64,000 nt of DNA from Pedobacter aquae (GTDB lineage: Bacteria > Bacteroidota > Bacteroidia > Sphingobacteriales > Sphingobacteriaceae), in the NCBI RefSeq assembly GCF_008195825.1, contig NZ_CP043329.1, positions 1,488,001 through 1,552,000 of the forward strand. The letters run 5' to 3'. A program made the position numbers and the translations under genes. Of the stretch, positions 3,002-58,352 are shown piece after piece. The notes beneath the pieces were generated by a model. The model was not told where the DNA came from. It made no database searches and saw only the letters and a list, made by a program, of their open reading frames with translations. Each line of letters opens with the position of its first letter. Position 1 is the first letter of the stretch.

Positions 3002-3046
3002 CTAAAGTAAAAACTACATTTATGAAGCGTATCCTGCCCCATCATG
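3002..3046 (-). promoter_or_regulatory. CAGG-repeat composite promoter, unit a (sigma/fecR/susC)
   Basis: Read along the minus strand, the site CATGATGGGGCAGGATAC has two half-sites 10 bases apart (CATG, CAGG). Counting 27 bases from the first base of the second half-site gives TACTTTAG, matching the -7 pattern TAnnTTnG seen at the other sites. It lies just past the GntR gene and points to the ECF sigma gene, leaving a leader of about 200 bases. The first half-site has one mismatch, but the exact spacing to the -7 box makes chance unlikely. Confidence 0.65.
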
Positions 3047-3057
3047 ATGAAAAAAAA

Positions 3058-4089
3058 CTATAAAGAAGGTCTTAGTGTAACATAAAAAGGAACAGCATGG
3101 TGCTCTTGATTATTGGTTTTAATCATTTCGGCGGTTAAATTCCCCATCAATTTAAAATCTGTAGAAATGGTGGTAATACCGTTTAATAAAAGTTTTTTAA
3201 GTGGTGTTTCATTGTAGGATATTAAACCTACATCTTTACCTAATACTAAATCCAAGGAGATGATTTTTTCTATCAAGGTTACCAAATCATCCTCCATTAA
3301 ATTGATATAAACTTCGCCAGCGCTAATAGGTTCTAACTTAATATCGCTTACGATAACATGATTAAAAGCATATTGCTGGCAAAATCTAATAAAACCGTGA
3401 ACTATTTCTTTTGGGAAATAACTCTTCTTAGGAAACAGTAATTTTAGGGTATTGTATTTACTTAACTGCTCATTTAACTCGGTTAAAGCATTATAAATAT
3501 CCTTCTCGAAATTCTCATAAACTGCCCCATAAGAACCTTCTACACCATTTACCTTTTTATCTATGAGTATCAATTTTTCTTTGGGTAACTGATTGATGAT
3601 TTCATAAGCATTCTCGCCACCTTCTAAAAAATGGGGAGCTATTACGAAATGAGAATAATCTGTTCTTCTGTTTAGGATGAGCTTTTTAAAGATGGTAAAA
3701 TCGTTATTATAGATATAAAAATCTACAGCAGCATCTGGACCTAAAGCGGCTACAAATGCATCGTAAATCATTTTTTTATGTACCGATAACTTATTAAAGA
3801 GTAAGAATACCTTTATTTTCTTTTTAAAGTTTGCATTACCAACATAATAACCTCTACCCGGTACGGATACAATAACGCCTAGCTTCTTTAGGTATTTGTA
3901 ACCTCTTTCTGTGGTGTCTCTTGATATTTCTAAAACATAGCTTAACTCGTTAATAGAGGGCAAAACATCATCTTTCTTTAAATGATTATTTTCTATAGCA
4001 GAGATAATAGCATTACTCAGCTGCAAATATTTCGGCGTAGCAGAGTATTCATCTACCTGAAGAAATTTATATAAGTCGGTTGGTTTCAT
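3058..4089 (-). CDS. GntR-family regulator with periplasmic-binding-protein-like sensor domain
   Basis: A 343-residue transcription factor. Residues 20-82 form a GntR winged helix-turn-helix (KYLQLSNAIISAI, LPSINELSYVLEISRDTTERGY, GVIVSVPGRGYYVG). From about residue 91 onward it resembles the LacI/GalR-type sugar-binding fold (KIKVFLLFNKLSVHKKMIYDAFVAAL, HFVIAPHFL, VGLISYNETPLKKLL). This layout is that of Bacillus AraR and of Bacteroides FucR-type regulators, which sense sugars in the cytoplasm. It is the last gene of the GH105-GH31-rhaM-GH43 operon, starting 2 bases after the preceding stop codon. Given the L-rhamnose mutarotase two genes upstream, a rhamnose-related or unsaturated-uronate ligand is a reasonable guess. 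It is a candidate for binding the CAGG repeats, but nothing in the sequence proves this. Confidence 0.88.
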   Translation of the reverse strand: MKPTDLYKFLQVDEYSATPKYLQLSNAIISAIENNHLKKDDVLPSINELSYVLEISRDTTERGYKYLKKLGVIVSVPGRGYYVGNANFKKKIKVFLLFNKLSVHKKMIYDAFVAALGPDAAVDFYIYNNDFTIFKKLILNRRTDYSHFVIAPHFLEGGENAYEIINQLPKEKLILIDKKVNGVEGSYGAVYENFEKDIYNALTELNEQLSKYNTLKLLFPKKSYFPKEIVHGFIRFCQQYAFNHVIVSDIKLEPISAGEVYINLMEDDLVTLIEKIISLDLVLGKDVGLISYNETPLKKLLLNGITTISTDFKLMGNLTAEMIKTNNQEHHAVPFYVTLRPSL

Positions 4090-4091
4090 AT

Positions 4092-5033
4092 TTATTCTAC
4101 CATTTTAACATGTATCAACTTTTGCAATTCTTCTTCGGTGATGTTTAAAATGGAGCCATGTCTAATCCCTTTAGGCAGGCTTATTTTAGCAGATATATCT
4201 TCCCAGTTTTCTAAATCTCTAGAGCTTAAAGCTCCGTATTGTTTTAAGGTATATTTATCAAAATAAACTATCCAATTACCTTGGTGTTTAAAAGCGGTTG
4301 GCCCTTCTGCCCAATAATTGCCTGTAAAAGGTTTACTGGCTGCACTGTAAGGACCGTTTATTTTCTTGCTGTAAGCTATTTTTAAATTCTTTTGAACAGG
4401 CTCTCGTGTTTCATCTTTTAGAAACATGACATAACGCTTTCCATCTTTTACAATAGAAGCATCAATAACATTAAAACCGGGCTCGTATAATAAACGTGTT
4501 GGGCTAAAAGTTTTAAAGTCTTTAGTTAAGGTGTAGTACATGCGGTGATTATAACCACTTTCTTTTTCTGATGCTGTTTCTAAAAACTTACCTTTTATGG
4601 TTGTTGCCCAATAAATCATGTATTGCTTTTTCTTAGCATCGTATGTAATTTCTGGTGCCCAACAGTTTCTAGCGCCTTCTTCATGTGCCATAACCGGAAT
4701 AGCTATTTGCGGAGACCAATAAATTAAATCTGTTGATGATGCATAACCGATAGTTTTATCTGTCCAACTAACTGTCCAAACCATATGAAACTTACCATCT
4801 GCCCCTCTGATGATGCATGGATCACGCATCAATTTATCTTTAGAGACTTCTGGTTTTAGAAAAGATTCATCGTTTTTTAAGGCTTGCCAAGTTAAACCAT
4901 CTCGGCTGTAAGCCAAATGCAAACCATCTTGTCCGTTGTTTTTAAAGTAGGAGAATAAATAAACCGTATTCTTTTCTTGCGCTTGAATAGCCAATGAAAG
5001 AAGAAGCATCGATAAAATAAGAATCCTTTTCAT
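4092..5033 (-). CDS. GH43-like five-bladed propeller glycosidase
   Basis: A predicted secreted glycosidase of 313 residues. The ATG at 5033 gives a clean signal peptide (MKRILILSMLLLSLAIQAQ); the upstream in-frame TTG at 5045 would overlap the previous gene and is less likely. The three acidic residues of clan GH-F appear in the expected order and sequence context: Asp in MRDPCII (general base), Asp in NVIDASIV (pKa modulator) and Glu in WAEGPTAF (general acid). Repeated blade motifs such as GYASSTDLIYWSPQ support the propeller fold. The family includes arabinofuranosidases, xylosidases and galactosidases, and the exact substrate cannot be read from sequence. Its neighbours (rhaM, GH31, GH105) suggest action on rhamnogalacturonan side chains. 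Confidence 0.8.
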   Translation of the reverse strand: MKRILILSMLLLSLAIQAQEKNTVYLFSYFKNNGQDGLHLAYSRDGLTWQALKNDESFLKPEVSKDKLMRDPCIIRGADGKFHMVWTVSWTDKTIGYASSTDLIYWSPQIAIPVMAHEEGARNCWAPEITYDAKKKQYMIYWATTIKGKFLETASEKESGYNHRMYYTLTKDFKTFSPTRLLYEPGFNVIDASIVKDGKRYVMFLKDETREPVQKNLKIAYSKKINGPYSAASKPFTGNYWAEGPTAFKHQGNWIVYFDKYTLKQYGALSSRDLENWEDISAKISLPKGIRHGSILNITEEELQKLIHVKMVE

Positions 5034-5037
5034 ATGC

Positions 5038-5346
5038 TTAATCAAGATGAAAAACCTGTTTTAAAGGAATACTTACCGGAGAATTATCCGGATTGGTTTC
5101 CATAATATCTGCCATGTAAGCCCACCATTTTTGTACTATTGCAGTTGAGCCTAAATCTTGCGATGATGAACCCGATTGTTGTTGTACAGCAAATAGCGTA
5201 TTAGTGGCTTCTTCTAAAAATATCGAGTAATCACTTATCCCGTTATCTTTTAAAAGCTGGGCTAATTCTGGCCAAATCTCATCATGTCTTTTCTTATACT
5301 CGGCTTCGCAGCCAGGTTTTAATTTCATTGCAAATGCTATTTTCAT
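5038..5346 (-). CDS. rhaM: L-rhamnose mutarotase
   Basis: A 102-residue cytoplasmic enzyme that interconverts the alpha and beta anomers of L-rhamnose before isomerisation. The sequence fits the RhaM/RhaU family in length and motifs: [23 protein letters not shown] at the start (the conserved His of the active site), [19 protein letters not shown], and the aromatic pair in [12 protein letters not shown], which forms the sugar pocket. It lies 22 bases after the GH31 gene and 4 bases before the GH43-like gene. It is the only intracellular sugar-metabolism enzyme in the degradation part of the window and is the best clue that rhamnose is released from the target. Confidence 0.92.
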
Positions 5347-5368
5347 ATGATTTAGCTAAGCTTAATTT

Positions 5369-7776
5369 TTATTGAATAACTACCTCAAAAGCGCCACTGG
5401 CTTCTAGCATAACATAGTTTTTGCTGTTATCGTACTTCCAGCTGCTTAGTGGTAATTCTTGATTATTGACTTTAACTGATGTTGGTTTTTGTTTAAAACC
5501 ATAAACCTGTAATTGAAATTGCTGAGCTATTGGCTGATAATCGCCTACAGGCTTAGCTACAATAATTTTTACAGCATCTTTTAACTCTTCTGAAGTGATT
5601 TTGGTTGTAGCAAATTTTCCTTTTTGATAGTCTAAAGTTTTACCATCATCCTCATACAAATTAAATTCTGATTTCCCTGAGGGATAAACCGCTAGCGTGA
5701 TATTTTTAACAGCTTGCTCATCGGTATATTTCATATCTTGTTGCATAGGGATAATACCTCCACCTCTTACAAAAAGCGGGATGGTATCTAAAGGAGCAAC
5801 TACATGTATGTACTGAGAACCAGAAATTTTCTTACCTGTCCAGTAGTTATACCAATTGCCTTTCGGCAGATATAAAGAGCGTGTTTTGGCAGCTTTAACA
5901 GTTACCGGGCAAACCATTAAATTATCCCCAAGAAGATATTGGTCATCTATGTTATAAGTATTTACATCATCCTGATGGTTTAATACCAAAGCTCTCATCA
6001 TAGGAATACCCGTTTGATGATTTTGATACATACTTGCATACAGATACGGCAATAAACGATAACGTAACTTATCGTAATTTCTAAAATTACGAAGTGCGTC
6101 TTCGCCATAGTTCCAAGGTTCTTTATAACCCGGATGATCCATACCAAAAACTAAAGCAACCGGACTTAACATCCCAAATTGTACCCATCTGATATACAAT
6201 TCTGGATCTGCAGGGTGCTCAAAACCACCCATGCAATGTGCCCAATTACTCACTCCGGATAAACCGATATTTAAACCTGCTTTAATAACCGGAGCAAAAT
6301 ATTGCCACTCGCTAGGCCAATCTCCAGCAAAAATAAATGGATAGCGCTGTATGCCTGCATAACCTTCGCGGGTTTGGTTTAAACCTCTTATTTTGTTTAG
6401 CTCTTGAAACTTCTCGTAAGGTGCTTTTGCATAAGCTATTGGAAAAATATTATGTAAGCGTTCTGCTTCTTGCCCTGTTGGGCCAACTTTATCACTTTCG
6501 TTTGCTTTATGACCAAAGGCACTTCCTTCGTCTGTTTTAAGAAACATGGCACCTTGTTTTGCTACACGCATCACGCCGTTTTCCCACCACCAGTCGACAG
6601 CTTTTTCATCAAAAAAGTTTACAAATTCGCCGGGCTTACCATCTTCTGGATAGGTAAAACCTTTTTTACGGGCTTGGTCTAAAAGGTTTAGTTTTTTAGC
6701 ATTATCAAAACGCGGACGAAGGTGTAAACCCACCATTTTATAATCCATCGCATAAATACTATCAAACATAGCTTTAGGATTCTTGAAGGTCTCTCTCCAC
6801 TCGAAAGTAGTAGCACCTTTACCCCCATTTTCGCCAAATAAACGCCAAGTAGAATCTAGCCAAATGATATCAGCAGGAATATTTTGCTGACGAAGTTTTT
6901 GCGCCAAAGCAATTACATACTGGGTGCTGGTCATTTCTTCATGCCCCAAGTACCACCGCTATAAGTACCTACATGTAAGCCCAAAGCAAATTTAGGCATC
7001 AATGGTGCTTTACCTGTTATGTTGGTATAATCTTGAATTAAAGAAGGGAAACTAGGGCCATAGATAAAATAATAATCTAACTCGCCATTTTCTGGGGCAA
7101 AGCTGTATTGGTTTGGATTGCTAGTGCCCATATCCCAATTAGAAGCATAGGAAGTATGCAAATAAATACCATAACCTTTGGTACTCATGAAAAAAGTAAC
7201 CGGGCAGTAATTGGCTTCTAAGACATTATAAGCGCCAACTTCATGCGGTAAGCCTTCGCCTCTACCCACATTTAACCTTAGCTTTTTACCCTTTCGGTCT
7301 AAAAAATCCATTCTTTCGCCAAAACCAAAAAAATGCTCGTTGGCTTGCATGGTTTTGGTTATGGTTTTTGCTTCGCCTTTTATTTGGGCAGGTAAAGCAT
7401 CTTCATTAATAAGTAAACCTTTATGGTTATAAACTTTGATTAAAAATGGAGTTTTCTGAATTTCTAGCTTTAAACTATCAGAATTGATGGTGATTTTGTT
7501 TTGATTTTCTACATGGTTAAGCTGTACTGCAGACCAATTGTAATTATTAACCATGTAATTTTCTTGAGCCACAAAAGTGCCATTAGCACTGTATCTTACT
7601 CTAAAAACTTTAGGTGAACAAAACTCTATTTTAATAGTAGTGCCGTTTTGTTGAAAGGTAAACTCGTTTCCCTTTTTTATAATAGTTTCTATTGCTCTCT
7701 CCTGAGACAGTACCGAAGTACTGCCCAGAAAGAAAACACTTAGAAAAATGATTAGAAAATTCTTTTTAATCAGCAT
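5369..7776 (-). pseudogene. GH31 alpha-glycosidase, split by a one-base frameshift
   Basis: Two frames together make one GH31 enzyme of about 800 residues. The first part (7776 to 6931) has a signal peptide, the N-terminal beta-sandwich and the start of the TIM barrel, and ends in SGGTWGMKK-stop. The second part (about 6943 down to 5369) resumes with HEEMTSTQYVIALAQ. The catalytic nucleophile is the Asp in FLKTDEG and the acid/base the Asp in FIFAGDW; barrel exit and C-terminal beta-sandwiches follow. Restoring one G in the four-base run at 6944-6947 gives TWGHE and reads straight through, so either the gene is newly broken or the base is a sequencing error. GH31 members act on alpha-linked xylose, glucose or galactose. 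The start codon overlaps the GH105 stop (TAATG), indicating translational coupling. Confidence 0.9.
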
Positions 7777-8918
7777 TATTTACCTCCAAGTTTATACATC
7801 TCGGCACCAGCTAAAAGAAAACATCCTAAGCCATAATCTTCAAAATCTGGCATGCTGGTATAGGTTACCGGCTGTCCGTCTTTAGGCTCTTTGCCTGTAC
7901 CTTGTACGTATCCTAAAAATCCGTTTGGATGTACTGCTTTAGTTACCATAGCATTCCATGCTTTATTGATAACCGGTAAATAAGTTGCTTTGTCTAACAA
8001 ACCGTTATTGATACCAAAAGCCATTCCGTAAACAAAAAGAGCAGTTCCGGTGGTTTCTGGGCCACCAAAATTGTTGGGATCATTTAAACTAACATTCCAG
8101 AAACCATCTTCTCTTTGTAAAGGCACTAAGGCTTTCATCATTTCTAAATAGGTTTTTATATATTCTTCACGATGAGGGCCATCTTTAGGCATAATATCTA
8201 AAACCCTAACCAAGGCTGCTACTACCCATCCGTTACCACGACTCCAGTAGCAATCATCGCCATTAGGCTCTTTATAAGGCGGTACAAAATCTTTATCTCT
8301 CCACCATAAGCCTTCTTTAGCGTTGTATAAACCACCACCTTCTACTTCTTTGGTATGCATATACATTTTATACATATACTCAAAGTAGGCTGGGTTTTTC
8401 TCTAAAACACCTAATTGCGCAAACACAGGCATTGCCATTTGGATAGCATCAATCCATGTCCAATCGTTTACTTTACCAGATGCCATCATTAAATCCATAG
8501 ATGCTTTAATATCTTTGATACGTTCTGGTTTTTTATCGATATAATACAAATCAATATAAGTTTGACCGCAAGCTTGATCATCACCATTACGGGTTTTAAT
8601 ACCGTTTCTTAATCCCCATTTATGTTTCTCGCCCCATTCTACGGCATAATCATAATATTTTGGATTTTTATCTATTTGATAAAGCGCCATTAAACCTTCA
8701 TAATAAACCGCTCTAGTCCAGATATTACTTGGTCTTAAAACATTGGTAAAAATAGGTTTGTATGGGTCTGGCCATTTATTCATAAAATAAGCGTTTGTAG
8801 AACGCATTACTTTTAAGATTTCTTCTTTTTGAGCTTTTCTTTGCTTTTGAGCAGCACAAGAAGAAAACAGCATAACAGCCACGCTTAAGATGAAAATTTT
8901 TGATAGGAATTTTGACAT
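7776..8918 (-). CDS. GH105 unsaturated rhamnogalacturonyl/glucuronyl hydrolase (lipoprotein)
   Basis: A 380-residue (alpha/alpha)6-barrel enzyme that removes the 4,5-unsaturated uronic acid left at the non-reducing end of oligosaccharides by pectin lyases. The family motif with the catalytic Asp is visible as NGDDQACGQTYIDLYYID, and the second signature as CYWSRGNGWVVAALVRVLD. The ATG at 8918 is preferred over the one at 8939 because it places a lipoprotein signal MSKFLSKIFILSVAVMLFSSC directly at the N-terminus, with Cys in the lipobox. It is thus probably membrane-anchored, not cytoplasmic like YteR. It is the first gene of its operon, about 120 bases downstream of promoter b, and is a natural partner of the PL9 and PL11 lyases encoded nearby. 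Confidence 0.92.
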   Translation of the reverse strand: MSKFLSKIFILSVAVMLFSSCAAQKQRKAQKEEILKVMRSTNAYFMNKWPDPYKPIFTNVLRPSNIWTRAVYYEGLMALYQIDKNPKYYDYAVEWGEKHKWGLRNGIKTRNGDDQACGQTYIDLYYIDKKPERIKDIKASMDLMMASGKVNDWTWIDAIQMAMPVFAQLGVLEKNPAYFEYMYKMYMHTKEVEGGGLYNAKEGLWWRDKDFVPPYKEPNGDDCYWSRGNGWVVAALVRVLDIMPKDGPHREEYIKTYLEMMKALVPLQREDGFWNVSLNDPNNFGGPETTGTALFVYGMAFGINNGLLDKATYLPVINKAWNAMVTKAVHPNGFLGYVQGTGKEPKDGQPVTYTSMPDFEDYGLGCFLLAGAEMYKLGGK

Positions 8919-9040
8919 GATAGTATTATTTATAATCATTTAATTTGCTACTTGTACAAAAAATTTCATCAACTTTTACTCTTAGAGAGGTTAAAGGCCA
9001 ATAAAATTTAGCGACAAAATTGTATAACTGGTTTGATTTA

Positions 9041-9085
9041 CGATGTTAAGGAAATATAAAATGGACAGCAACCTGCTGTGTCCTG
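9041..9085 (-). promoter_or_regulatory. CAGG-repeat composite promoter, unit b (GH105-GH31-rhaM-GH43-gntR)
   Basis: The minus-strand site CAGGACACAGCAGGTTGC has both half-sites intact, 10 bases apart. At the conserved distance of 27 bases from the start of the second half-site the -7 position reads TAACATCG, the weakest of the ten -7 boxes. The half-sites are identical to those of unit d apart from the final TTGC/ATAG. It lies downstream of the terminator hairpin of the preceding operon, so it probably starts a new unit. Confidence 0.75.
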
Positions 9086-9115
9086 TTTAAGTGTAAAAAA
9101 CTCATTAGAAACTAT

Positions 9116-9147
9116 AAAAACCTTGACAATTAAATTTCAAGGTTTTT
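9116..9147 (-). terminator. Rho-independent terminator of the PL11-to-sulfatase operon
   Basis: An 11-bp perfect stem (AAAAACCTTGA with TCAAGGTTTTT) encloses a 10-base loop and ends in a U-rich arm on the minus-strand transcript. It lies 195 bases after the sulfatase stop and just before promoter b, which is where the upstream operon should end. By symmetry it could also work on the plus strand. Confidence 0.7.
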
Positions 9148-9341
9148 TTAGCGAGTGTTAAGATTAATTTTTTGAGAGATTACCAATGTCAATATATGAC
9201 AATATCCTACATAAAATAAAGACTATTTGATTTTTGGTTTTAGCTATTACCCATTAGATTCTAAAATCTAAAAAAAACAAGTCTTTACAATAAGCCTAAA
9301 TAAAATAGATTGATTTGGATGAGCAAGTAATTATCAAGAAG

Positions 9342-10940: not shown

Positions 10941-10979
10941 GACAATAAAAGGTTTATGATATGGATGCCCTAATTTAAA

Positions 10980-13554: not shown

Positions 13555-15432
13555 TTAAGGGTGACGGTAGTTTACTATGTTAATAAAAGGTTTAGGTGCT
13601 GGTTTCATCCCTTTACCCATATAAAAGCCGGTGTGTGGTGGCTGGTTATAGCCAACATTTTGCCAAGCAATACTTAAACGATAATGCGGGTCATGCATTA
13701 AGGTATATTGTCTTATGGTGGTAGGGATGGTTGTGGTATAGATACGCAATTCCTTATTATCAGCACTGCGGAGGATGAGTTCTTCTCGCCAATCGCCTAA
13801 AATATCAGCAGATAATGCGGGTGTAGATTTTGTGCCGTTGTTAGAAACAGCACCATCAGCAGTAAAAATTCTGCCTTTTCCATACTTCTCAATATAGTTT
13901 CCGTTTAAAAGTTCTCTACTTAAATCGCCATCCCAATAAATTAAAAAATTAGTTGAGCGAGGTGCCAAACCTATTTTTTCTCCTTTTATCGTATATAAAT
14001 CTGGAGAACCAGCCCACCACATTTGAGCGCCTACTCTTGTGGTATCAATATTTGCAGCTACGCCTCTTCCAATATCCTCGTTATCGGCAGCTTTAAATAA
14101 AATCTTACCCGTAGCAGCTTCATAAAGGGCAACACCAGGACCTGTAGTACCTTCCTCTATTTCATGTACACCAAATACCTCTAAGCCGGGATGATCAGGG
14201 TCTAAATCGCTTACATGAAGGGCATCGCCATGTCTTAAGCCTGTTGAGTATAAACCTTTACCATTATCATCAACCACCATAGCGCCAAAAACAATTTCGT
14301 CTTTTCCGTCTTGGTCGACATCGGCAACAGATAAATTATGATTTCCCATCCCTGAAAAAGGATTTTTACCATCTTTAGAATCAAACACCCACCTAGAGCT
14401 TAGTTTTCCTTCTCTAAAATCAAAAGCGGCTAAAACAGTTCTACCATAATAGCCTCTGCCCATCACCAAACTTGGGCGTTTACCATCTAAATAAGCAATG
14501 CAAGCGGTATATCTGTCTACTCTATTTCCTGTCTTATCATTACCACCATTACCACCAACCCCGCCCCAAGTACCAATATCTCCTCTTGAAGGAATATAAT
14601 CAACTGTAGCTAAGGCTTCTCCCGTTTTACCACTAAATATGGTCAAATACTCCGGCCCTGATAAAATTTTACCATAAGTAGGCGCTCTTTTATTTAAGGT
14701 ATCTCGCCAATCTGTCTGGGCATCTCCGATAATTTTTCCTTTACCGTCTGTAGTACCATCTGCTGTTTTGCAAGCAAATTCGGCTATGCCATCACCATCT
14801 AAATCATACACCATAAACTGGGTATAATGGGCGCCTTCTCTGATGTTTTTTCCGAGATTAATTTCCCAGAGAAATGTACCATCAGACTTATAAGCTTGAA
14901 AAATGGGTGGGTCTGTTAAACCTGCTGAGCTATTATCTCTGCCCCTACCAGATTGATGTAGAATAAAATCATATTGACCATCGCCATCTAAATCTCCTAC
15001 AGATAAATCATTAGGAACGTAACCCGTGATGTTTTTTAAAGGGATAGACAAATAAGGTTTTTCTTCGGCGTTAGCAGCAATGGTAAATTCGCCTTTTTCT
15101 GTTTGTTCTTTTTTGTTAATAATGCTTTTAACAAACCATGTATTTACTTTGGTTTCTTTAGCTGTTGAATCTATAATACAAGTAGCACCTGTTATAGGTC
15201 TAGCATTTATTTTAACGGGCTGTTCATCACCAGATTTTCTGTAAACATTAAAAGCTACATCAGGCGCATCGGTACCTAAAACACGCCAACTCACATAATA
15301 ATGATGATTGCCCTTATAAATAGCAACCACGCCACGGTCTAGCGCCTCCATTTGCTTTTGCGCAAACAAGAAATTTATGGTAGCAAAAAGAAATACGAGT
15401 AGTAAACCAGATTTTTTTAGACTTATAGTCAT
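13555..15432 (-). CDS. PL11 rhamnogalacturonan lyase (YesW/YesX type)
   Basis: A 625-residue secreted lyase that cleaves the Rha-(1,4)-GalA bond of the rhamnogalacturonan I backbone by beta-elimination. The sequence has the PL11 eight-bladed propeller with Ca-binding loops (DLSVGDLDGDGQYDF, MVYDLDGDGIAEFACKTADGT, DVDQDGKDEIVFGAM), preceded by an N-terminal beta-sandwich (ALDRGVVAIYKGNHHYYVSWRVLG). The family motifs LSGPEYLTIFSGKTGE and LGDWREELILR near the C-terminus are also clear. The ATG at 15432 is chosen because it gives a good signal peptide and leaves the promoter outside the gene; the frame open to 15513 would run through the promoter. It is the first gene of an operon ending at the sulfatase. 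Confidence 0.94.
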   Translation of the reverse strand: MTISLKKSGLLLVFLFATINFLFAQKQMEALDRGVVAIYKGNHHYYVSWRVLGTDAPDVAFNVYRKSGDEQPVKINARPITGATCIIDSTAKETKVNTWFVKSIINKKEQTEKGEFTIAANAEEKPYLSIPLKNITGYVPNDLSVGDLDGDGQYDFILHQSGRGRDNSSAGLTDPPIFQAYKSDGTFLWEINLGKNIREGAHYTQFMVYDLDGDGIAEFACKTADGTTDGKGKIIGDAQTDWRDTLNKRAPTYGKILSGPEYLTIFSGKTGEALATVDYIPSRGDIGTWGGVGGNGGNDKTGNRVDRYTACIAYLDGKRPSLVMGRGYYGRTVLAAFDFREGKLSSRWVFDSKDGKNPFSGMGNHNLSVADVDQDGKDEIVFGAMVVDDNGKGLYSTGLRHGDALHVSDLDPDHPGLEVFGVHEIEEGTTGPGVALYEAATGKILFKAADNEDIGRGVAANIDTTRVGAQMWWAGSPDLYTIKGEKIGLAPRSTNFLIYWDGDLSRELLNGNYIEKYGKGRIFTADGAVSNNGTKSTPALSADILGDWREELILRSADNKELRIYTTTIPTTIRQYTLMHDPHYRLSIAWQNVGYNQPPHTGFYMGKGMKPAPKPFINIVNYRHP

Positions 15433-15460
15433 GTAGTTTAAATAATTATAATTGGTAGCT

Positions 15461-15505
15461 CCAAAATATGAAATTCTATTTATGCAGGCATCATGTACCA
15501 TCCTG
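15461..15505 (-). promoter_or_regulatory. CAGG-repeat composite promoter, unit c-minus (PL11 operon)
   Basis: On the minus strand the site CAGGATGGTACATGATGC has one perfect and one degenerate half-site (CATG). TATTTTGG lies at exactly 27 bases from the start of the second half-site. It is back to back with a plus-strand copy at 15533-15576, forming a divergent control region. The ATG of PL11 at 15432 lies about 29 bases after the -7 box. Confidence 0.78.
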
Positions 15506-15532
15506 AAAAGCAAACATCAATCATTTATTTAT

Positions 15533-15576
15533 CAGGATGAAACAGGATGATTAATCATTTGATTATTTACAATTTG
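15533..15576 (+). promoter_or_regulatory. CAGG-repeat composite promoter, unit c-plus (PL9 gene)
   Basis: The plus-strand site CAGGATGAAACAGGATGA has two intact half-sites. TACAATTTG follows, with its TTTG one base closer than at the other sites. The -7 box ends 24 bases before the ATG at 15601. This supports that ATG over the in-frame one at 15547, which would lie inside the operator. Confidence 0.75.
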
Positions 15577-26647: not shown

Positions 26648-26692
26648 CTAAAATAGGCTATTTTATATATTCACCTATCCTGCTGTGTCCTG
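26648..26692 (-). promoter_or_regulatory. CAGG-repeat composite promoter, unit d (GH106 operon)
   Basis: The minus-strand site CAGGACACAGCAGGATAG has both half-sites intact, with TATTTTAG exactly 27 bases from the start of the second. The leader to the GH106 ATG is about 105 bases. The operon reads through to the gene ending at 17250. Confidence 0.82.
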
Positions 26693-29691: not shown

Positions 29692-29736
29692 CAAAACTAG
29701 GTGAATAAAACATGCTCCGCAACCTGTTGTATCCTG
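29692..29736 (-). promoter_or_regulatory. CAGG-repeat composite promoter, unit e (GH115)
   Basis: The minus-strand site CAGGATACAACAGGTTGC is one of the best copies, with TAGTTTTG, a perfect TAnnTTTG, exactly 27 bases from the start of the second half-site. It begins only 8 bases after the SusD stop codon, so the GH115 gene has its own start even though it lies directly behind the susCD operon. Confidence 0.85.
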
Positions 29737-45245: not shown

Positions 45246-45290
45246 CTAAGGTATACCAATTAAAAAATAACCGCAACCTGTAGTATCCTG
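45246..45290 (-). promoter_or_regulatory. CAGG-repeat composite promoter, unit f (15-kb susCD/fasciclin operon)
   Basis: The minus-strand site CAGGATACTACAGGTTGC is nearly identical to unit e, with TACCTTAG exactly 27 bases from the start of the second half-site. It drives the fasciclin-SusC-SusD-fasciclin-fasciclin-SusC-SusD operon ending at 29744. The leader of about 215 bases is one of the two longest in the set. Confidence 0.85.
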
Positions 45291-49110: not shown

Positions 49111-49155
49111 GAAAGATATAAGATAATATTCCAAAATGCATCCTGTAGCATCTTG
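49111..49155 (-). promoter_or_regulatory. CAGG-repeat composite promoter, unit g-minus (GH95-CE12)
   Basis: On the minus strand the site CAAGATGCTACAGGATGC has a degenerate first (CAAG) and a perfect second half-site, with TATCTTTC exactly 27 bases from the start of the second. It stands back to back with unit g-plus, 14 bases away. The -7 box ends 23 bases before the GH95 ATG at 49087. Confidence 0.75.
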
Positions 49156-49169
49156 TATAAAATAATGTT

Positions 49170-49214
49170 CAGGACACCGCAGGTTGCACTCCTTTATGGG
49201 TATTTATAGTTTAG
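49170..49214 (+). promoter_or_regulatory. CAGG-repeat composite promoter, unit g-plus (third susCD pair)
   Basis: The plus-strand site CAGGACACCGCAGGTTGC has both half-sites intact and TAGTTTAG exactly 27 bases from the start of the second. The predicted leader to the susC ATG at 49353 is about 130 bases and contains inverted repeats. Confidence 0.85.
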
Positions 49215-49352: not shown

Positions 49353-52300
49353 ATGAAAATTAAACTCTATTCGCCTCTTTGCAGGTATTTGCAAGGTGTT
49401 TTCCTACTCTTTATCCTTTGTACTTTAAGCCTCAAAACATTGGCTCAACAAAGTATTAGCGGGCAAGTAAAAGATGATGCCGGTCTAGGTATACCTGGTG
49501 TTTATATTTCTGTTAAAAACGGAAAAAACACAACTTTAACAGATATTGATGGAAATTTTAAGATTACCGCTAACGTAGGTGAGACATTGGTTGTAAAATC
49601 ATTAGGATATACAACCAAAGAAATTTTAGTTACACAAGCAACTAGCAGCTTACAAATTCAGCTAGAAACCAATACCGAAAAATTAACAGAAGTGGTGGTG
49701 GTTGGTTACGGTACAGTAACTAAAAAAGAAGCAACCGGAGCTATTGCCCAAGTATCATCAAAACAAATTGAAGAAGTACCAGTACAAAACGCCATACAAG
49801 CATTACAGGGAAGAGCTGCTGGTGTTGATGTAACTTCTAACGCCCGACCGGGTGAGCTAGGAAGTATAAGAATACGTGGAAATAGATCTTTACTAGCTGG
49901 TAACGACCCCTTATATGTGGTAGATGGCATACCACTTACCGCTGGCGGGATAGACGCTATAAACCCACATGATATTGAAACTATTGATGTTTTAAAAGAT
50001 GCTGCTTCTACCGCCATATTTGGTTCAAGAGGCGCTAACGGTGTAGTGATGATTACCACCAAAAAAGGTAAAAGCGGTACAGCAAAAATCAATTACAACC
50101 TCATTACCAATTTTGATTACATCAATTACTTGGATGAAAATTTTACTGCCGGAGAATATGCAGAATACAGAAGAGATGCTTACCGGGCCTTATCAAACAA
50201 CCCAAGTTCTGGTTACTCTACTCCTTACCCAAACCCAATAGAAGATAAACGTATTTTAGGTAACGACCCTAATGCTTGGGAAAATATTGCAAGAGGTTAT
50301 ACTTGGTTAGACAAAGAAAACCTTATTCCGCAAACAAGGCCAACAACAGCTGCCGAGCAAGCTTTATGGGGTGTAAGTCAAGTTCCTATCTATAATGGAG
50401 ATTTAATACCTACTACCAATTGGACAGATTATGTAAGCAGAACCGGTATTACCCAAGACCATACTTTAAGCTTAAGTATGGGTTCAGAAAAAATGAATGC
50501 TTATGTTTCTGGCGGGTATTTAGACCAAGTTGGCACCAATAATGGACAAGATTATAAAAGATATAACCTTAAAACCAGTTTTGATTTAAAACCTACTACA
50601 TGGTTTAGTTTAGGAGGTTCTATCACAGGAACATGGAGCGTACAAAATTTTGGCTTTATGGGTACTGGTAGCAGAGGTGCAAACGGTATTTATGCTGCTG
50701 CATTAGGCATGTTACCTTTTGCCGTTCCTTACGATGCTAATGGGCAATTTATTTACAACCCAGGGGCAGACATCAACATCGTAAACCCTATACAGGAAGA
50801 TAAATTTGTGATTAATGAGAGAACAAGTTTAAGAGCTTTAGGTAGCTTGTATGCGGAGCTAAATTTCTTAAAAGATTTTAAATACAGAATCAACTTCGGA
50901 CCAGATTTTAGAAATTTCAGAAACGGACAGTTTCAAGACAAGCAATCTCTATTAAGAGGTGGTGGCGCCCCAACATCTACCAATTTTGCAAGATTAAGCC
51001 AAAACCAAGCTTTTGCATGGACATTAGACAATCTTATTTATTATGATAAAACCATCAACAAGCAACATAAAATTGGTTTAACCTTATTACAGAGTTCTAC
51101 TTTTAATCGTAACGATGGTTCTGATATGTCTGCTATAGACTTACCTTATAACAGTCAGTTATGGTATAATTTAGGTTCAACATCACAAGGAAAATTACAA
51201 GGCTGGGGCTCTAATTATAGCAAATACACCTTATCATCCTACATGGCTAGGGTTAATTATTCCTTATCAGATAAATATATCTTAACAGCCTCTGCAAGAT
51301 GGGACGGCTCATCTGTTCTAGCAGAAGGTAATAAATGGGATTTCTTCCCCTCAGCATCAGTTGCATGGCGAATGGAGCAAGAAAATTTCATCAAAAATAT
51401 CAATTGGATATCGCAATTAAAACCTCGTTTAGGTATCGGTGTAACCGGAAACTCTTCTGTTGACCCCTACTCTACAGCAGGAGCCATAATTTTAATGCCT
51501 ATTGTTTTTGGCTCTCAGGTTTCTATGGGATATATCCCATCTGACCCTAAAGCAGCAAACCCTGGCACTTTACCCAATAGAGAGTTAAGCTGGGAAAAAA
51601 CCACATCAGTAAACTTGGGTGTTGATTTTGGATTTTTTAGAGATCGGATATCAGGAAGTATAGATGTTTATAGAACCACTACTAACGATTTACTATTTAA
51701 CCGCCCCGTGAATTTAGTAACGGGCTTTACTTCCATTTTCTTTAATACCGGCCAAACACGTGGTAAAGGTTTAGATTTTAGTGTAAATACTGTAAACGTA
51801 GACAGCAAAGACTTTAGATGGAACACCACCATTAACCTTTCTTTAAATGATGCTGAAGTTGTAGAAACCGCCTTTGGTAAAGTTGATGATGTAGGACAAA
51901 ACCTTTTTATAGGAGAAAATCCATACATTTTTTATGATTACAAAAAGATAGGAATTTGGCAAACTTCTGACACCGATGAGCTTGCAAGATTTAATGCCAA
52001 TGGTTCTAATTTTAAACCCGGTGATATACGTGTAGAGGATGTTAATGGAGATTATAAAATTGATGCGATTAATGACAGACAAATTTTAGGTAACCGCTTT
52101 GGAACTTGGAATGGAGGGATCACCAATACCCTAGCTTACAAAAATTGGACTTTATCTTTCTTTGTTATAGCCCGTGGTGGCTTTCTAATTGAAGGTGGCG
52201 CATCTGATTTACAAGGGCGTTATAACTCTAGAAAAGTTAATTATTGGACACCAGACAACCCAAGTAATGAATACCCTAGAGCCGATTTTGGTAATGGAGG

Positions 52301-52541
52301 ACAACCTCTTTTCTATTCTGCTATGAATTATCAGGATGGTACTTTTGTTAAAGTTCGTAACATATCTTTAGGCTATAATCTTCCTAAAAAAGCTATTCAG
52401 CCTTTAAAAATGAGCAATCTAAACATCTATGCTCAGGTATTAAATCCATTCTTATATACCAAAAATGGGTTTATAGACCCAGATATTTTCAGCTCTATTA
52501 GTTCTAGAACTTTTGTATTAGGCCTTAACGCTTCATTTTAA
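49353..52541 (+). CDS. SusC-type TonB-dependent receptor
   Basis: A 1062-residue outer-membrane importer of classic type. Signal peptide, CarboxypepD_reg domain ([23 protein letters not shown]), TonB-box-like [16 protein letters not shown], and plug ([44 protein letters not shown]) come in order; the barrel ends in [11 protein letters not shown]. It has no STN domain, so control should be through the promoter alone. It is followed after 10 bases by susD and is transcribed divergently from GH95, on the opposite strand to most of the locus. Confidence 0.95.
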
Positions 52542-52551
52542 AAACATCATC

Positions 52552-54432
52552 ATGAAAAAGATAAAAAACTTAATTATAGCAGGGCTGGCAAGTACAGTTT
52601 TAACTATGCCTGCTTGCAAAAAATTTATAGACGAAGAATTGGTTGCTACCTTAACCAATGATTATTATAACACACCAGACGGAATTGAAAAACTTGTTAC
52701 CGGTATGTATGATGGTTTAAGATTTCATTTTAACTATGAATGGGCTTATACTACTACCAATTATGGTGTAGATGAGTTTACCAATGGTGGAGGTTTAGAC
52801 CGAGTTTATATGAACACCTATTCTAGCGTTTTTGACCCCAGGGTAGAAGATATTAATGCTGTTTGGAATAATATGTATGCAAACATCAATACTGCAAATA
52901 CAGGTATCAGTAAAATTCCGCAGGTTTTTCCGCAAGGTGGTACATTAGCTAATACGCGTTTAGGCGAGTGTTATTTCATGAGGGCTTTTGATTATTTTAA
53001 ACTGGTAAAGCAATTTGGTGGTGTACCTTTAAAATTAACACCAACAGAGGGCTTACTTACCGAGTTTTCTAGAGCTAGTGCAGAAGAAGTTTATGCGCAG
53101 ATTATTACAGATTTTAGAAAAGCTATTGATTTATTACCGCCAACAGCTGCACAAACGGGCAGAATTACCAAAGCTGCAGCACAACACTGTTTGGCGAAGA
53201 CTTATTTGTATAGAGCGAGTGAATTAAATGCTGCTTTTAGTAAAACTACAGATTTAGACAGCGCCATATTTTATGGCAAACAGGTTATAGAAGCTTCTAC
53301 CCATCGTTTAGCTACAAATTTTGCAGATATTTTTAGATACACCAAAGTAAATGATGTAAATGAAACTAATCCGGAGATTATTTTAGCTGCCCAATTTGAT
53401 AATAATGATGCCTTAGCCGGTAGGTACGGAAATCAAACACACCTACATTTTTTATCGGTTTACCAAAACCTGCCGGGTATGACAAGAGATTTAATTAATG
53501 GTAGAGAGTTTCAGCGATTAAGACCTACCAATTATGCGTTAGATATTTATGATAGAACCAACGATTCTAGGTTTTACAAAAGTTTTAAAACTTCTTACTT
53601 AGCTAATAATGCTAACACTTTACCAAGCTGGAGTGCCGCAAACGCCCCTACTCCGGCACAAGTTGGCCAAAGAAAGTTCTTAGTTGGCGATACATCTATT
53701 ATTTACATTGTTAATGCAGCAAACGATACTAGGTTTACACTGCAAACCATTAACCGCTCTGCTCCATCTTTATATGTAAGATATTATTTAGATAATGGGG
53801 TAGTAAAAACCAATTGGAGCTTAAGTCAGTACCCAAGTTTATCAAAATATTTAGACCCTTTTAGAACATCAGTTGCTAGCCAATTAGGTACTAGAGATGG
53901 TATTATAGCCAGAATTGCCGAAACCTATTTAATTGTAGCAGAAGCTTATGGCCGAAAAGAAGATTATGCAAATGCTGTCATCTATATCAATAGGGTAAGA
54001 GAAAGAGCCGGCTACGATACTAATGAAACACGTAGCCCTGTTTATTTTAGAGCGCAAAACTTGCCAAATACGGCAACTGGTTCTACCAAAAATGCGATGC
54101 TAATTACAGAAAATGCCTTTGTACCAGGTACTACCGAGGCTGCCAAAGAGCTATATATTTCAGGTGTTAATACCAAGAAAGATGGTTTTGTACATTTCAT
54201 GTTAAATGAAAGATCAAGAGAATTGATGGGCGAATTTCATCGTTGGGAAGATTTATCTAGAACCAGAACATTGGTGAGCAGAGGTAAGGCTTTTAACCCA
54301 GAAGCAGCACCAAACCTAAGCGATAAGTTTTTATTGAGACCAATTCCTCAATCTTTCTTAGATGTTAACGAGAAAGATGGCAGACCCTTAACGCCAGAAG
54401 AAAAACAACAACAACAAAATCCGGGTTGGTAA
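52552..54432 (+). CDS. SusD/RagB-family glycan-binding lipoprotein
   Basis: A 626-residue surface lipoprotein, partner of the SusC just upstream. The lipobox is TMPAC, followed by [30 protein letters not shown]-like segments ([47 protein letters not shown]) and the C-terminal signature [22 protein letters not shown] are present. The mature protein ends in a Gln-rich tail ([11 protein letters not shown]). It closes a two-gene operon ended by the strong hairpin at 54459. Confidence 0.94.
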
Positions 54433-54458
54433 TTATCAAAAACTTAGAAAACAATAAA

Positions 54459-54484
54459 GGGATTCTCCGCTAAAAGAGAATCCC
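54459..54484. terminator. Bidirectional intrinsic terminator between convergent operons
   Basis: A 9-bp perfect G/C-containing stem (GGGATTCTC with GAGAATCCC), an 8-base loop and T-rich flank TTATTTATT on the plus side, A-rich AATAAA on the other. It separates the plus-strand susD (ends 54432) from the minus-strand GH35 gene (ends 54580) and can serve both. Confidence 0.88.
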
Positions 54485-54579
54485 TTATTTATTATAGAAT
54501 GATTCGCAATAATCATCATTATTTACAGCCTAACCGATAGAAACCATCATCAATAAACTAAAAAACACATTCCTCATAC

Positions 54580-56924
54580 TTAAAATTTAAAAGGTTCTTG
54601 TTTAAGAAAAATTCGGTAATCTTTTACCATACCGTTTTGGCTTTTATCAGATCTGGGAAGGTATCTTAGGCTACTAACTTCTACTAATTCTCCTAAATCT
54701 ATTACAATTTGGTGTGGATGTTTGGGTTTTGCGCCAACAGCCTGTGTTTGCCAAAAAGTAGACTCCTGCTGGTCGTAAACTTTATCAGCCGCATGGTTAG
54801 CTGCTGTAATTTCTTCAGAATCGGCATAAATAACCTTCCATTTGAGGGTTGATAGCGTTTGTCCGTCTGTACTGGTAAGTTCTAACTCGGCAATAGAGCT
54901 TAAAACATCTTTTTCTTGTTGCGCATTTAAAGCCTCAAAGCATAAGTATTGGGCTTTTACAGAGGCGTTAAACTTTACTTCTTTCCAGCCTGTACCGGCT
55001 GTAAAACTTCCAACAGCAATAGGTTTTTCTGCTGCTAAATCTAAATTTTGGTTTTTCTTACGATGAAGCAAAGACTCATCGGGGTTTAGTTGGTCTAAAA
55101 TAGCTTCTTTTAAACCAGCCAATTTGGGTTCTTTGGGGCTATCAACATCTAGAACAATAACTTCATTTTTACCCTTTTTAAGCCAAGCACCGGGTATAAA
55201 TAGCGTTTGTTGCGGACCAATTTTCCAGAACCTGCCCATATTGTATCCGTTTACCCAAAGCATGCCCTTACCCCATGTACTTACATCTAAAAAGGTATCT
55301 CCTACTTTATCTATTACAAAATATCCTTTATACCACCCTGGAGTTTGTATTTGTTGGGTTTTAAACTTCGCCTTGGTTTGAAATTCATAATCTACCGGGA
55401 AATTGTAAACCGTCCAATTAGTAAGTATCGTTTTATCATTCCCATGGATGATTTCTACCTTTTCTGTGATACCTTTTCTATCTATAATAGCTTTACCATA
55501 ATTTACCCTTCCGGTAGCTTCAACTAAAATATCTAATCTGGCAGTTTTAGATAAAGCTGGTATTTCTAAGGTATTATCGCCTCTTCTTCTATCTAATCTG
55601 CCAATAGATTTTCCGTCTATAAACACATTAGCCCAGTCATGCAACTCGGTAATTAAAAGTTTTTGCTTTTGCGCTGATGGCTTTAAATAAGTTCTATACA
55701 AGATACGGCCCCAACCTTGGTTAAACATTTCCATAGGTTTAATATCTTTTGAGGGGATGCCTTTAGGGAGATTATCAAAAATAGAAGCTGCTTGGTTTAA
55801 CTTAAATCAGGAATTTCTATAATGGGCATAGCTGGCGGAATTTCGCCTAAAGTCTCGCCTTCCTGAAGGTAATTTTTCAATAAATTTCTTACGGCATAAA
55901 ACTTTTCGGTGGTATTTCCTTGTTCGCCGATAGGCGCATTATAATCGTAAGAAGTTGCCATAGCAGAATAAGGTGGAGCGTTTGCACCTCCCCATTGACC
56001 AAAAGAAGTTCCACCGTGTGCCATATATAAGCTAAAAGATATTTTTCTGTCTAACATATCTTTTAAACTTCCAATAAATGAAGATACTGAGCGTGTTTCA
56101 TGCGGGCGCCCCCAGTGGTCAAACCAACCCGACCAATACTCGCTACACATTAAAGGCGAGTTTGGGTATTTCTCTTGAAAAGTTTTAAACTGTTTATCAA
56201 TATCAGAACCTGCACCAAAATTTAAGGTGGTGGCTACGCCGCCTAACTCGTACTTACTAAAATTTGAAGACCAATCGCATCTAAATAGTTGAACTTTATC
56301 AAAACCTGCTATTCTTAACTCGTCTCTTACAGCTTCCATATAAGGTTGCTCGTTCCCAAAGGCAGCAAATTCATTTTCTACCTGCACCATAATAATGTTT
56401 CCACCATTTTGGATTTGTAAAGGAGCCAACTGCTTAGCTACTTCTTTTAAGTATTTAGCGGTTCTTTGCATAAAGAAAGTATCTTTTGCAGTGCGTACTT
56501 GTATGTCTTGCTTTTTTAAAAGCCACCAAGGTAGGCCACCCATATCCCACTCTGCACAAGCATAAGGGCCTGGCCTAACAATGCAATACATCCCATTATC
56601 TTGAACCAACTTCACAAAAGCAGCAACATCTTTTTGTCCACTAAAATCAAAAACATCTTGCTCTTGCTCATGTAAATTCCAAAACAGGTAAATACAAATG
56701 GTATTCATGCCCATGGCTTTACAAAGCTTAATCCGCTGATCCCAATACTCTCTAGGGATTCTTGGAAAATGCAATTCGCCAGCCCTTATTACATAAGGTT
56801 TTCCGTTAAGCAAGAAACTTTTATCGCCAGCAATAAAGGTTTGGTTTTGAGAAGTTTGAGCAAAACCAGAAAAGGATAAAAAAACTAAATATAAGCCTAT
56901 TAAAACGGCACTTATTTTCTTCAT
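54580..56924 (-). pseudogene. GH35 beta-galactosidase, split by a one-base frameshift
   Basis: Two frames make one GH35 enzyme of about 780 residues. The first (56924-55797) has a signal peptide, the start of the barrel (KPYVIRAGELHFPRIPREYWD), the acid/base Glu in MVQVENEFAAFGN and the nucleophile Glu in MCSEYWSGWFDHWG, and ends in IIEIPDLS-stop. The second continues in another frame from LNQAASIFDNLPKG through the jelly-roll domains (MLWVNGYNMGRFWKIGPQQTLFIPG) to a C-terminal discoidin-like domain (PHQIVIDLGELVEVSSLRYLP). One extra A near 55801-55806 would give PDLKLNQ and restore a single frame. It may be a real inactivation or a base-calling error; the rest of the sequence shows no decay. 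It lies 15 bases after the BNR_4 gene. Confidence 0.88.
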
Positions 56925-56939
56925 GTTCTTGATAAGCTA

Positions 56940-58220
56940 TTATTTTAAATCTACTTGGATAATCTTCACCATTTGAGCTGGCTTATGCTCGGTTTTTTCA
57001 CCATCGCCCTGCCCGGTTTGCTGCACAAATAGCTGAAGTTTATTTTTTCTTTGCCATAAGGAGGTATCATAAGAAGGTTCCCATTGTTCCTGACTTTCGG
57101 CTGAGACATCTTTCACTTGCCATATTCCTTTTTCTATGTCTTTGGTGGTGGCTACAGAAATTTTGCTACCTCTTTCTTCATCTCTAAAAACCAAAGCTAT
57201 TTGTTTTTTATTCACTACAATCTGAGGTCTGGAAATAGGAATTCTTTTAGTACCTACACCGCTTAAAGTAAAAGGTGTTTTCCTTTCTGCTACCTGCTTT
57301 ATCAGCCATTTTTCACCATTGTAATAGATAATTTGGTATTGCGGAATATTAGAATTTGCCGAACGCCAATAGCTGGCGATGTAAGGCATACCGCTTGGAC
57401 TGGTTGTCATAGATGTGGAGTTTATCAACTCACTTTTTTGCGGTATCAACACAATGGGCATGGTGTTTTCTATGTTCATAGGGATAGGATATGCTTTACC
57501 TGTTTCAGAAATCCAGGTTTTACCCTCGTCTAAAGATTTCGCATAGCTCATATCATGATTGGTAGCTACATCACTTTGCTCTCGCCATACCCAACTGATG
57601 TGGAATACACCATTTTTATCTATACATGCTTGCCAATAGGCATTTCTTTTCCCTTGCCCATCAATTAAATTATCATGAATACGTTCCCATTTATTTGTTT
57701 TGGTATAGTATCGGTTTAAAACCAAATTACCTTTTCCAGAAGCGCCTTCGCGGTAAAGAAAAAGTAAATCGCCATTTTTTAAAGCATAAAACTCGGGGTA
57801 AGTAGCTTTTTGCTCGTTCTTAGCAATCATAGCTATTTCTGCCCCTAGCTCTAAAGAACCTGGCGCTATGCTTTTAGCATATCTTAACTTGCTAGCGTGT
57901 TGATCCCAAGAGACATGTAAATATCCATTACCATCAAGGATGATACTGATACTGTTATGTGCATCTTTTATGTTTCCACGATATTGGCTTTGTTTAACTT
58001 CCCATTGGTTAGCATGAAGTTTTCGCTTAGCTAAAACTAGATAACCAGCATCATTATAATAAGAAGTGTATTGCCAGTTTTTATGACTGATAACCGAGTT
58101 TTTTCTGAATACAACGGTATTTACGCTGTTACCTGCCCAGCCTAAACCAACATCAGAAACCTGAGCGGTTGCTACTTGAAAGCAAATGGTAAATAAAATG
58201 ATAAGCCTTTTTAGCTTCAT
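56940..58220 (-). CDS. Secreted BNR_4-type beta-propeller protein, possible rhamnosyl-glucuronate hydrolase or lyase
   Basis: A 426-residue protein with signal peptide (LIILFTICFQVATAQ). It has repeated propeller blades: NIKDAHNSISIILDGNGYLHVSWDQHASKLRYAKS, FHISWVWREQSDVATNHDMSYAKSLDEGKTW and GMPYIASYWRSAN, matching the BNR_4 pattern. That fold is used by ulvan lyases (PL24, PL25), by L-Rha-alpha-1,4-GlcA lyase (PL27) and by the GH145 rhamnosidases that act on arabinogalactan caps. Conserved His and Tyr residues lie in the first blades. The exact activity is unknown. Operon partners (GH35) and the nearby GH115 fit a role on glucuronate- and rhamnose-capped galactan side chains. Confidence 0.75.
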   Translation of the reverse strand: MKLKRLIILFTICFQVATAQVSDVGLGWAGNSVNTVVFRKNSVISHKNWQYTSYYNDAGYLVLAKRKLHANQWEVKQSQYRGNIKDAHNSISIILDGNGYLHVSWDQHASKLRYAKSIAPGSLELGAEIAMIAKNEQKATYPEFYALKNGDLLFLYREGASGKGNLVLNRYYTKTNKWERIHDNLIDGQGKRNAYWQACIDKNGVFHISWVWREQSDVATNHDMSYAKSLDEGKTWISETGKAYPIPMNIENTMPIVLIPQKSELINSTSMTTSPSGMPYIASYWRSANSNIPQYQIIYYNGEKWLIKQVAERKTPFTLSGVGTKRIPISRPQIVVNKKQIALVFRDEERGSKISVATTKDIEKGIWQVKDVSAESQEQWEPSYDTSLWQRKNKLQLFVQQTGQGDGEKTEHKPAQMVKIIQVDLK

Positions 58221-58307
58221 ATAATTTAGAAAATTACCATCAAATGATTAGAAAGCTAATATTTTAGGTAACAAGTTTTAATGGGATGAACAAGTTAATT
58301 GGATGCT

Positions 58308-58352
58308 CTAATTTGAATAAAATTAGTTAAAAAAGCATCCTGCATTGTCCTG
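58308..58352 (-). promoter_or_regulatory. CAGG-repeat composite promoter, unit h (BNR_4-GH35)
   Basis: The minus-strand site CAGGACAATGCAGGATGC has both half-sites intact. At the conserved distance the -7 box is CAAATTAG, with C in place of the first T. It is the rightmost copy in the window and begins 10 bases after the stop of the GH1-RmlD gene, which marks the edge of the regulon. Confidence 0.78.

Follow-up and report, generated by a model that had tools for sequence, protein, structure and literature searches.

A direct repeat locked to the -7 box at ten promoters of a Pedobacter aquae pectin locus, and a GntR-type protein as its candidate reader

This analysis concerns a direct repeat, CAGGAYRnnrCAGGWTGC, that occurs ten times in a 64,000-nucleotide stretch of the Pedobacter aquae genome (contig NZ_CP043329.1, positions 1,488,001 to 1,552,000; the window refers to this whole stretch), in a locus predicted to serve the use of rhamnogalacturonan. 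The ten sites, first described in an initial annotation of this DNA, were confirmed. Together with a -7 box at a fixed distance, the repeat constitutes a promoter signal that is conserved in Bacteroidota, and across genomes it accompanies a GntR-type protein that is also encoded in the window and is the candidate regulator.

Occurrence and specificity of the repeat

All ten sites (Table 1; named in the text by their first position) were found at the coordinates and on the strands originally described, and the starts of the two half-sites were exactly 10 bases apart in each of them. Five sites matched the core without a mismatch, three (15488, 15533, and 49138) had one mismatch, and two (3029 and 26675) had two; the initial annotation had correctly noted degenerate half-sites, and its number of three such sites was slightly too low. 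At 27 bases from the start of the second half-site, the box read TAnnTT at seven sites and had the two variants claimed for 58335 and 9068, and at 15533 the box started two bases early. Judged from the gaps between open reading frames (ORFs), all promoter regions responsible for the locus between 3 and 58 kb contained a site, and a weight-matrix scan of the window detected no site before the glf cluster, both in agreement with the initial proposal.

The genome of the strain was scanned as a whole (3.85 Mb), using the reversed motif as a control. The exact core was found five times, always inside the window, as compared to no control match, and 8 of the 10 matches with up to one mismatch were in the window. 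The core alone was noisy at up to three mismatches, because 112 matches then stood against 44 controls. The core combined with TAnnTT, with up to two mismatches, resulted in 11 matches, namely, the ten sites and one at G000:C1:1741157+ (G000 is the P. aquae genome), and no control match. A genome scan had been named beforehand as the test of whether the full motif and box are equally frequent elsewhere; with the ten sites accounting for 10 of the 11 matches, they were not.

For the weight matrix, 51 non-coding sites were taken from other genomes; they were selected with the initially proposed core consensus at up to one mismatch and regardless of the box; some of these sites came from G013, a genome whose locus nearly matches that of the window. 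In this check, exactly the ten sites ranked first, with scores from 38.1 to 21.7. The next match scored 10.8 and was located in coding DNA (position 13761), and the best score over 8 Markov-1 random windows was 14.0. Outside the window the matrix was applied to selected stretches of the same genome, where the site at 1741157+, before a secreted protein, scored 27.6 and a site at 1472217+, before a PL11 lyase, scored 23.5. A site at 2953785- with a score of 20.3, close to that of the weakest of the ten, had a box one base off; it was set aside as an unproven member of the regulon, since the membrane protein ORF downstream looked by eye unrelated to pectin. Another match, at 2036001-, was rejected as a promoter site because it lies within a gene.

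The considerable number of controls at three mismatches might suggest that the sites resemble each other by chance or are copies of a mobile repeat. However, the 19 bases that separate core and box showed no mutual resemblance by eye, and this explanation was ruled out by the genome scans, the matrix ranking, and a scan of the bacterial family, which resulted in 690 matches as compared to 7 controls (see below), so that its probability is negligible.

Promoter geometry and conservation

The distance between repeat and box was conserved in related genomes. TAnnTT was located exactly at offset 27 in 24 of the 51 non-coding sites of relatives, whereas no other offset between 10 and 42 had it in more than 2 sites, and at least three of the four box letters were present at offset 27 in 46 of these sites (other offsets, at most 16). 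None of the 27 coding sites of relatives had TAnnTT at this offset; when the sites of P. aquae and its relatives were pooled, the figures were 31 of 61 non-coding and 0 of 28 coding sites. The initial claim that the sites are locked to the -7 box is thus supported by both conservation and distribution.

The box profile of the sites, TAnnWTnG, agrees with TAnnTTTG, the consensus of the primary sigma factor of Bacteroidota (PMC9723704, PMC7366714). The -7 box of Flavobacterium was placed at -12 to -5 (PMC9723704), which would position the half-sites at about -49 and -39 and the operator at about -49 to -32. In Bacteroides thetaiotaomicron promoters, the distance from the -33 box to the -7 box varies (PMC7366714). 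Given this variability, so strict a spacing points to the action of a bound protein on the polymerase, and it suggests polymerase contact and activation in a class II mode. The arrangement appears class II-like, as initially proposed, with a site over or next to the -33 position and at the fixed offset of 27 from the -7 box. The accompanying statement that the second half-site replaces the -33 element was correct as to the overlap with this position and only in part as to replacement, since TTG was retained there in 32 of the relatives' 51 sites and ATG was present in the other 19.

The retained TTG would also be compatible with a GntR protein that represses over the -33 region and is released by rhamnose, and sugar-responsive GntR proteins are often repressors. 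However, repression would not require that the distance to the -7 box be constant, and the fixed spacing, along with the frequent lack of TTG, speaks for activation over repression. We therefore consider repression unlikely, whereas activation by GntR has a good probability.

Another alternative is that repeat and box are the -35 and -10 elements of the extracytoplasmic function (ECF) sigma factor encoded at 2182-2787, whose gene is indeed located behind site 3029. However, homologues of this sigma factor (E<=1e-25) were present in only 9 of 60 relatives, whereas the core was present in 33, and homologues with at least 65% identity were restricted to three genomes, namely, the P. aquae genome, G013, and G028. 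The fit of the box to the primary-sigma consensus also argues against this alternative. The motif does not follow the sigma gene across genomes, which rules out this sigma factor as its reader; the distribution bears out the preference of the initial annotation, and the probability left to this alternative is extremely low.

As a separate observation, CCAAT-type words (mostly ACCAATTAT) were present in the window at the expected mRNA start, 5 to 15 bases past the -7 boxes. Such a word occurred within 70 bases past the box at 8 of the 10 regulon promoters, in 7 of them at 5 to 15 bases; for comparison, 10 of 48 other genes had one in the 100 bases that precede the ORF.

The core with up to one mismatch was present in the 33 relatives mentioned above, several of which had their matches grouped on one contig. 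By eye, the genes preceded by sites in the regions around these matches encoded SusC/D proteins, PL11 and GH105 enzymes, fasciclin lipoproteins, GDSL esterases, and glycoside hydrolases. In 251 genomes of the family, core and box together gave the 690 matches, and 161 genomes had at least one. Outside the family, 72 matches were found in 39 of 283 genomes, and the reversed control also yielded scattered single matches; this signal is thin and distinct only in genomes with several matches.

When one genome of each species was scanned, at least 120 loci were returned. Among the matches listed (120 loci, 123 sites), 119 loci were from Bacteroidota and one from "bacterium A37T11"; the genera included Pedobacter, Sphingobacterium, Mucilaginibacter, Chryseobacterium, Flavobacterium, Pricia, Adhaeribacter, Pontibacter, and Niabella, and only 3 sites were within ORFs. 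Classified by its best match to the proteins of P. aquae, the next gene in these listed loci was SusC-like at 46 sites, GH28 at 12, fasciclin at 10, PL11 at 8, GH2 and GH105 at 5 each, ECF sigma at 2, and RhaEW, GH95, and GH115 at 1 each, with 25 next genes unmatched and 7 beyond the locus.

Two further features were observed in individual genomes. Sites before ECF sigma/FecR/SusC units, with imperfect boxes, were also present in G024 (L150 6670) and G036 (L069 7912), which may indicate a recurring cascade. The operator ended in GGATAG instead of GGWTGC at 5 of 8 sites in G024, 4 of 6 in G070, and 5 of 5 in G288. The GntR proteins of G024 and G288 are only 42% identical to that of the window, which hints at a joint change of protein and site.

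The sites and principal genes of the window are listed in Table 1. Some of the gene names given without reference to Pfam or NCBIfam, such as those near sites outside the window and around the gntR copies, were read by eye from the translations. The ORF at 17250-19373, which belongs to the regulon, encodes 707 amino acids and had no Pfam match at E<=1e-5. The GH31 (5369-7776) and GH35 (54580-56924) genes of the window are each split into two ORFs, as is the PL11 lyase gene at G000:C1:1472298-1474441, and these may be pseudogenes or sequence errors; the GH31 relative in G008 (L141:1279-3696) is a single ORF. A GH1-like/RmlD-like fusion protein is encoded at 58362-60515, beside glf and outside the regulon.

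Table 1. Repeat sites and regulatory or rhamnose-related genes of the window
Feature	Position (strand)	Box	Genes behind the site, or description	Matrix score
Site 3029	3029..3046 (-)	TACTTTAG (operator CATGATGGGGCAGGATAC)	Before ECF sigma/FecR unit	26.0
Site 9068	9068..9085 (-)	TAACATCG	Before unit of GH88/105, split GH31, rhaM, GH43-like, gntR	37.2
Site 15488	15488..15505 (-)	TATTTTGG	Before PL11 lyase unit (13555-15513 down to 9342)	30.5
Site 15533	15533..15550 (+), divergent	CAATTT at 27; TACAATTTG two bases earlier	Before Pel9A-like pectate lyase gene	21.7
Site 26675	26675..26692 (-)	TATTTTAG	Before GH106, GH2-like, GH28, ORF 17250-19373	28.7
Site 29719	29719..29736 (-)	TAGTTTTG	Before GH115	36.8
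Site 45273	45273..45290 (-)	TACCTTAG	Before SusC/SusD/fasciclin unit (45023 down to 29744)	38.1
Site 49138	49138..49155 (-)	TATCTTTC	Before GH95 and GDSL esterase	28.1
Site 49170	49170..49187 (+), divergent	TAGTTTAG	Before susC-susD (49353-54432)	38.0
Site 58335	58335..58352 (-)	CAAATTAG	Before BNR_4 protein and split GH35 gene	33.1
gntR	3058..4089 (-)		GntR winged helix and LacI-like sugar-binding domain; last gene of unit behind site 9068; proposed regulator	
rhaM	5038..5346 (-)		L-Rhamnose mutarotase (PF05336, 6.4e-32)	
FecR anti-sigma and ECF sigma	1056-2072 and 2182-2787 (-)		Behind site 3029; candidate target, not motif reader	

The candidate regulator and the rhamnose genes

The initial annotation had named GntR merely as a protein to be tested for binding; the comparative evidence now points to it as the regulator. 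The GntR domain (PF00392) was detected in 9 of 9 aligned homologues, and the copy in the window scored 29.3 bits (cut-off, 27). Peripla_BP_3 was detected in all nine at E<=1, with a best value of 1.9e-8 and only 0.015 for the window copy. In a profile search of solved structures, GntR domains matched the N terminus and LacI proteins the C terminus, and the AraR DNA-binding domain was matched weakly. The protein would accordingly have the architecture of an AraR-type GntR/LacI chimera, with an N-terminal GntR winged helix and a C-terminal LacI-like sugar-binding domain.

The occurrence of sites followed that of GntR (homologue thresholds, E<=1e-60 in the family and E<=1e-40 in the class sample). 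GntR was present in 180 of the 251 family genomes, and at least three sites were found in 98 of these, as compared to 0 of the 71 genomes without it; when the GntR labels were shuffled within genera, 98 was never reached in 20,000 trials. Outside the family, 24 of 283 genomes had GntR, and at least three sites were present in 7 of the 24 versus 0 of the 259 others (P = 1.3e-8). Two sites were found there in two further genomes with GntR and in three without it (G326, G346, and G532). Among the 46 genomes for which gntR and site positions were listed, 22 had gntR at a distance of no more than 50 kb from a site, as compared to 3.5 expected.

Several observations weigh against this assignment. 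GntR travels with the rha operon, so that another rha-linked factor would produce a similar pattern: RhaEW was present in 188 of the 251 genomes, and only 9 genomes had RhaEW without GntR. None of these nine had at least three sites (P = 0.0011, unstratified), with four of them belonging to a genus, g44, in which no genome has that many. An exact site before a GH78 rhamnosidase was located in G086 (L374, G086:C11 near 8358), in which no homologue of GntR or its sensor was found. The palindromic operators to which GntR proteins usually bind, with known exceptions (PMC5320631), differ from the direct repeat with a 10-base period observed here. A weak match upstream of gntR itself was detected in only 2 of 9 loci among the matches listed, and 3 of the 19 gntR copies that were viewed had no recognized rha gene in the stretch viewed. 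The site before rhaT in P. aquae (CATGATGGTACATGACAG) scored below zero with the matrix of the rhamnogalacturonan type, so that the reading of both operator types by one protein is an assumption. Finally, AraC-type genes were as frequent as GntR in the short loci chosen by the motif, with 9 of 138 each.

This last count is also an argument for a different reader of AraC type, either stand-alone or as a hybrid two-component protein with two helix-turn-helix units on sites 10 bases apart, or of DeoR type, with GntR controlling only rha or nothing in this locus. In other phyla, the DeoR-type RhaR recognizes direct repeats with a period of 10 to 11 bp (PMC3870299), and a hybrid two-component gene, identified by eye (G000:C1:1583402-1587511), is located beside sulfatase-like genes at a distance of about 37 kb from the nearest site. 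However, the motifs of Bacteroides hybrid two-component and AraC-type rhamnose regulators have repeats about 21 bp apart, not 10 (PMC3870299, PMC3878776), no AraC or DeoR gene was seen among the window ORFs when these were read by eye, and genomes with at least three sites follow GntR without exception. Such a reader is quite unlikely, and the repeat is probably bound by the GntR protein of the window (3058-4089).

A second gntR, with 70% identity, is located in the same genome at 2.43 Mb (G000:C1:2426886-2427866), before rhaT, rhaEW, rhaA, and rhaB; in NCBIfam searches, RhaT and the bifunctional aldolase/dehydrogenase were above the cut-off, and the isomerase and the kinase were below it. Nine of the 19 gntR copies viewed were beside rhaT, one was beside rhaEW, and six had a rhaM-like ORF and no rhaT in the stretch. 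No rha genes were recognized in the stretches viewed around four weaker paralogues (50 to 52% identity).

A CATG version of the repeat was located before rhaT in ten distinct upstream regions of P. aquae and its relatives, also with the box at 27; all four box letters were present in nine of them and three in the P. aquae region. Upstream regions were further searched for the best-scoring position (core, at least 11/16; box, at least 3/4; offset, 26 to 28). Among the matches listed, intermediate versions of the operator were at offset 27 in 17 of 17 scorable regions before rhaT, three more being too short, and in 10 of 12 before rhaEW. As rough controls in place of a random null, the search gave the 2 of 9 already mentioned for gntR and 1 of 4 for rhaA among the matches listed. 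The claim of one regulon for the whole locus is thus upheld as to a single regulon, and not as to its confinement to the locus, since the relatives add rhamnose transport and catabolism.

Site 3029 is a hybrid, with one half-site of the rhaT type (CATG) and the other of the rhamnogalacturonan type (CAGG). It is directly behind gntR, at the place occupied by rhaT in G008, and now precedes the ECF sigma/FecR pair and a SusC/D cluster in which GH43 genes and arabinofuranosidase genes are present. A rearrangement may have moved this promoter.

Proposed mechanism and known systems

The motif, its spacing to the box, its conservation, its target classes, and the co-occurrence and linkage of GntR were established by sequence and statistics. 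The reading that we favor, and consider probable, is that a rhamnose-sensing GntR activator occupies the region from about -49 to -32, from where it acts on the polymerase with the primary sigma factor. The sites would be the operators of one rhamnogalacturonan/rhamnose regulon across Bacteroidota, and GntR, with its LacI-like sensor, would bind the two half-sites one helical turn apart. The bound protein would touch RNA polymerase carrying the primary sigma factor and compensate for a poor -33 element in class II activation, a contact suggested by the fixed spacing. The inducer is fairly likely to be L-rhamnose or a near metabolite, freed from rhamnogalacturonan. The induced products, namely, the enzymes, the SusC/D uptake proteins, and gntR itself, would then create a positive feedback.

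The odds seem about even for a wider proposal, according to which a GntR/LacI-type chimera, bound to a direct repeat of one helical turn, activates the primary-sigma polymerase of Bacteroidota in a class II mode. Pectin use outside Bacteroides would then be widely controlled by a rhamnose sensor in the cytoplasm that drives whole rhamnogalacturonan loci, in place of a polysaccharide sensor in the periplasm, and the duplicated copy in P. aquae would also command an ECF sigma unit before an arabinan-type locus. Published regulators of this function concern Bacteroides and other groups (PMC3870299, PMC3878776); for Pedobacter, Sphingobacterium, Chryseobacterium, and Flavobacterium, the present data supply a candidate regulator of pectin use and an operator that can be tested. 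If the proposal is true, it would clearly exemplify an activator that is locked to the unusual -7 promoter of Bacteroidota, and it would provide a design for an inducible promoter in these four genera.

The general logic, in which a regulator joins sugar catabolism with a polysaccharide locus and GntR activators act on direct repeats, is already known. In the portions of the open-licence PubMed Central literature consulted, we found no description of the combination proposed here, in which a chimera of the GntR/LacI type and a one-turn repeat at primary-sigma promoters of Bacteroidota serve the use of rhamnogalacturonan. AraR of Bacillus subtilis reportedly combines a GntR domain with a LacI-like sugar sensor, as here, and is said to be an arabinose repressor that acts on palindromes, unlike the system described here. 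The MocR-type GntR proteins GabR, TauR, and PdxR share the GntR DNA-binding domain, activation, and direct-repeat operators; however, their sensor is aminotransferase-like and their repeats are two or three helical turns apart, as compared to one turn here (PMC5320631). RhaS of Erwinia chrysanthemi is a rhamnose regulator that, with rhiTN, also commands genes for rhamnogalacturonide use, but it belongs to the AraC family, and regulator and promoters are unrelated to those described here (PMC3870299). Bacteroides RhaR (AraC family) and HTCS_Rgu-1/2 respond to the same substrates, rhamnose and rhamnogalacturonan, but are members of other protein families with repeats about 21 bp apart, in contrast to 10 here (PMC3870299, PMC3878776). 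ManR of B. thetaiotaomicron is, as here, a GntR-family monosaccharide regulator that joins sugar catabolism with a SusC/D locus (PMC3878776). ManR, however, concerns mannose, occurs in 3 of 11 Bacteroides genomes, and had its motif sought as a palindrome (PMC3878776), whereas the system described here concerns rhamnogalacturonan, has a direct repeat, and is present in many Sphingobacteriales and Flavobacteriales.

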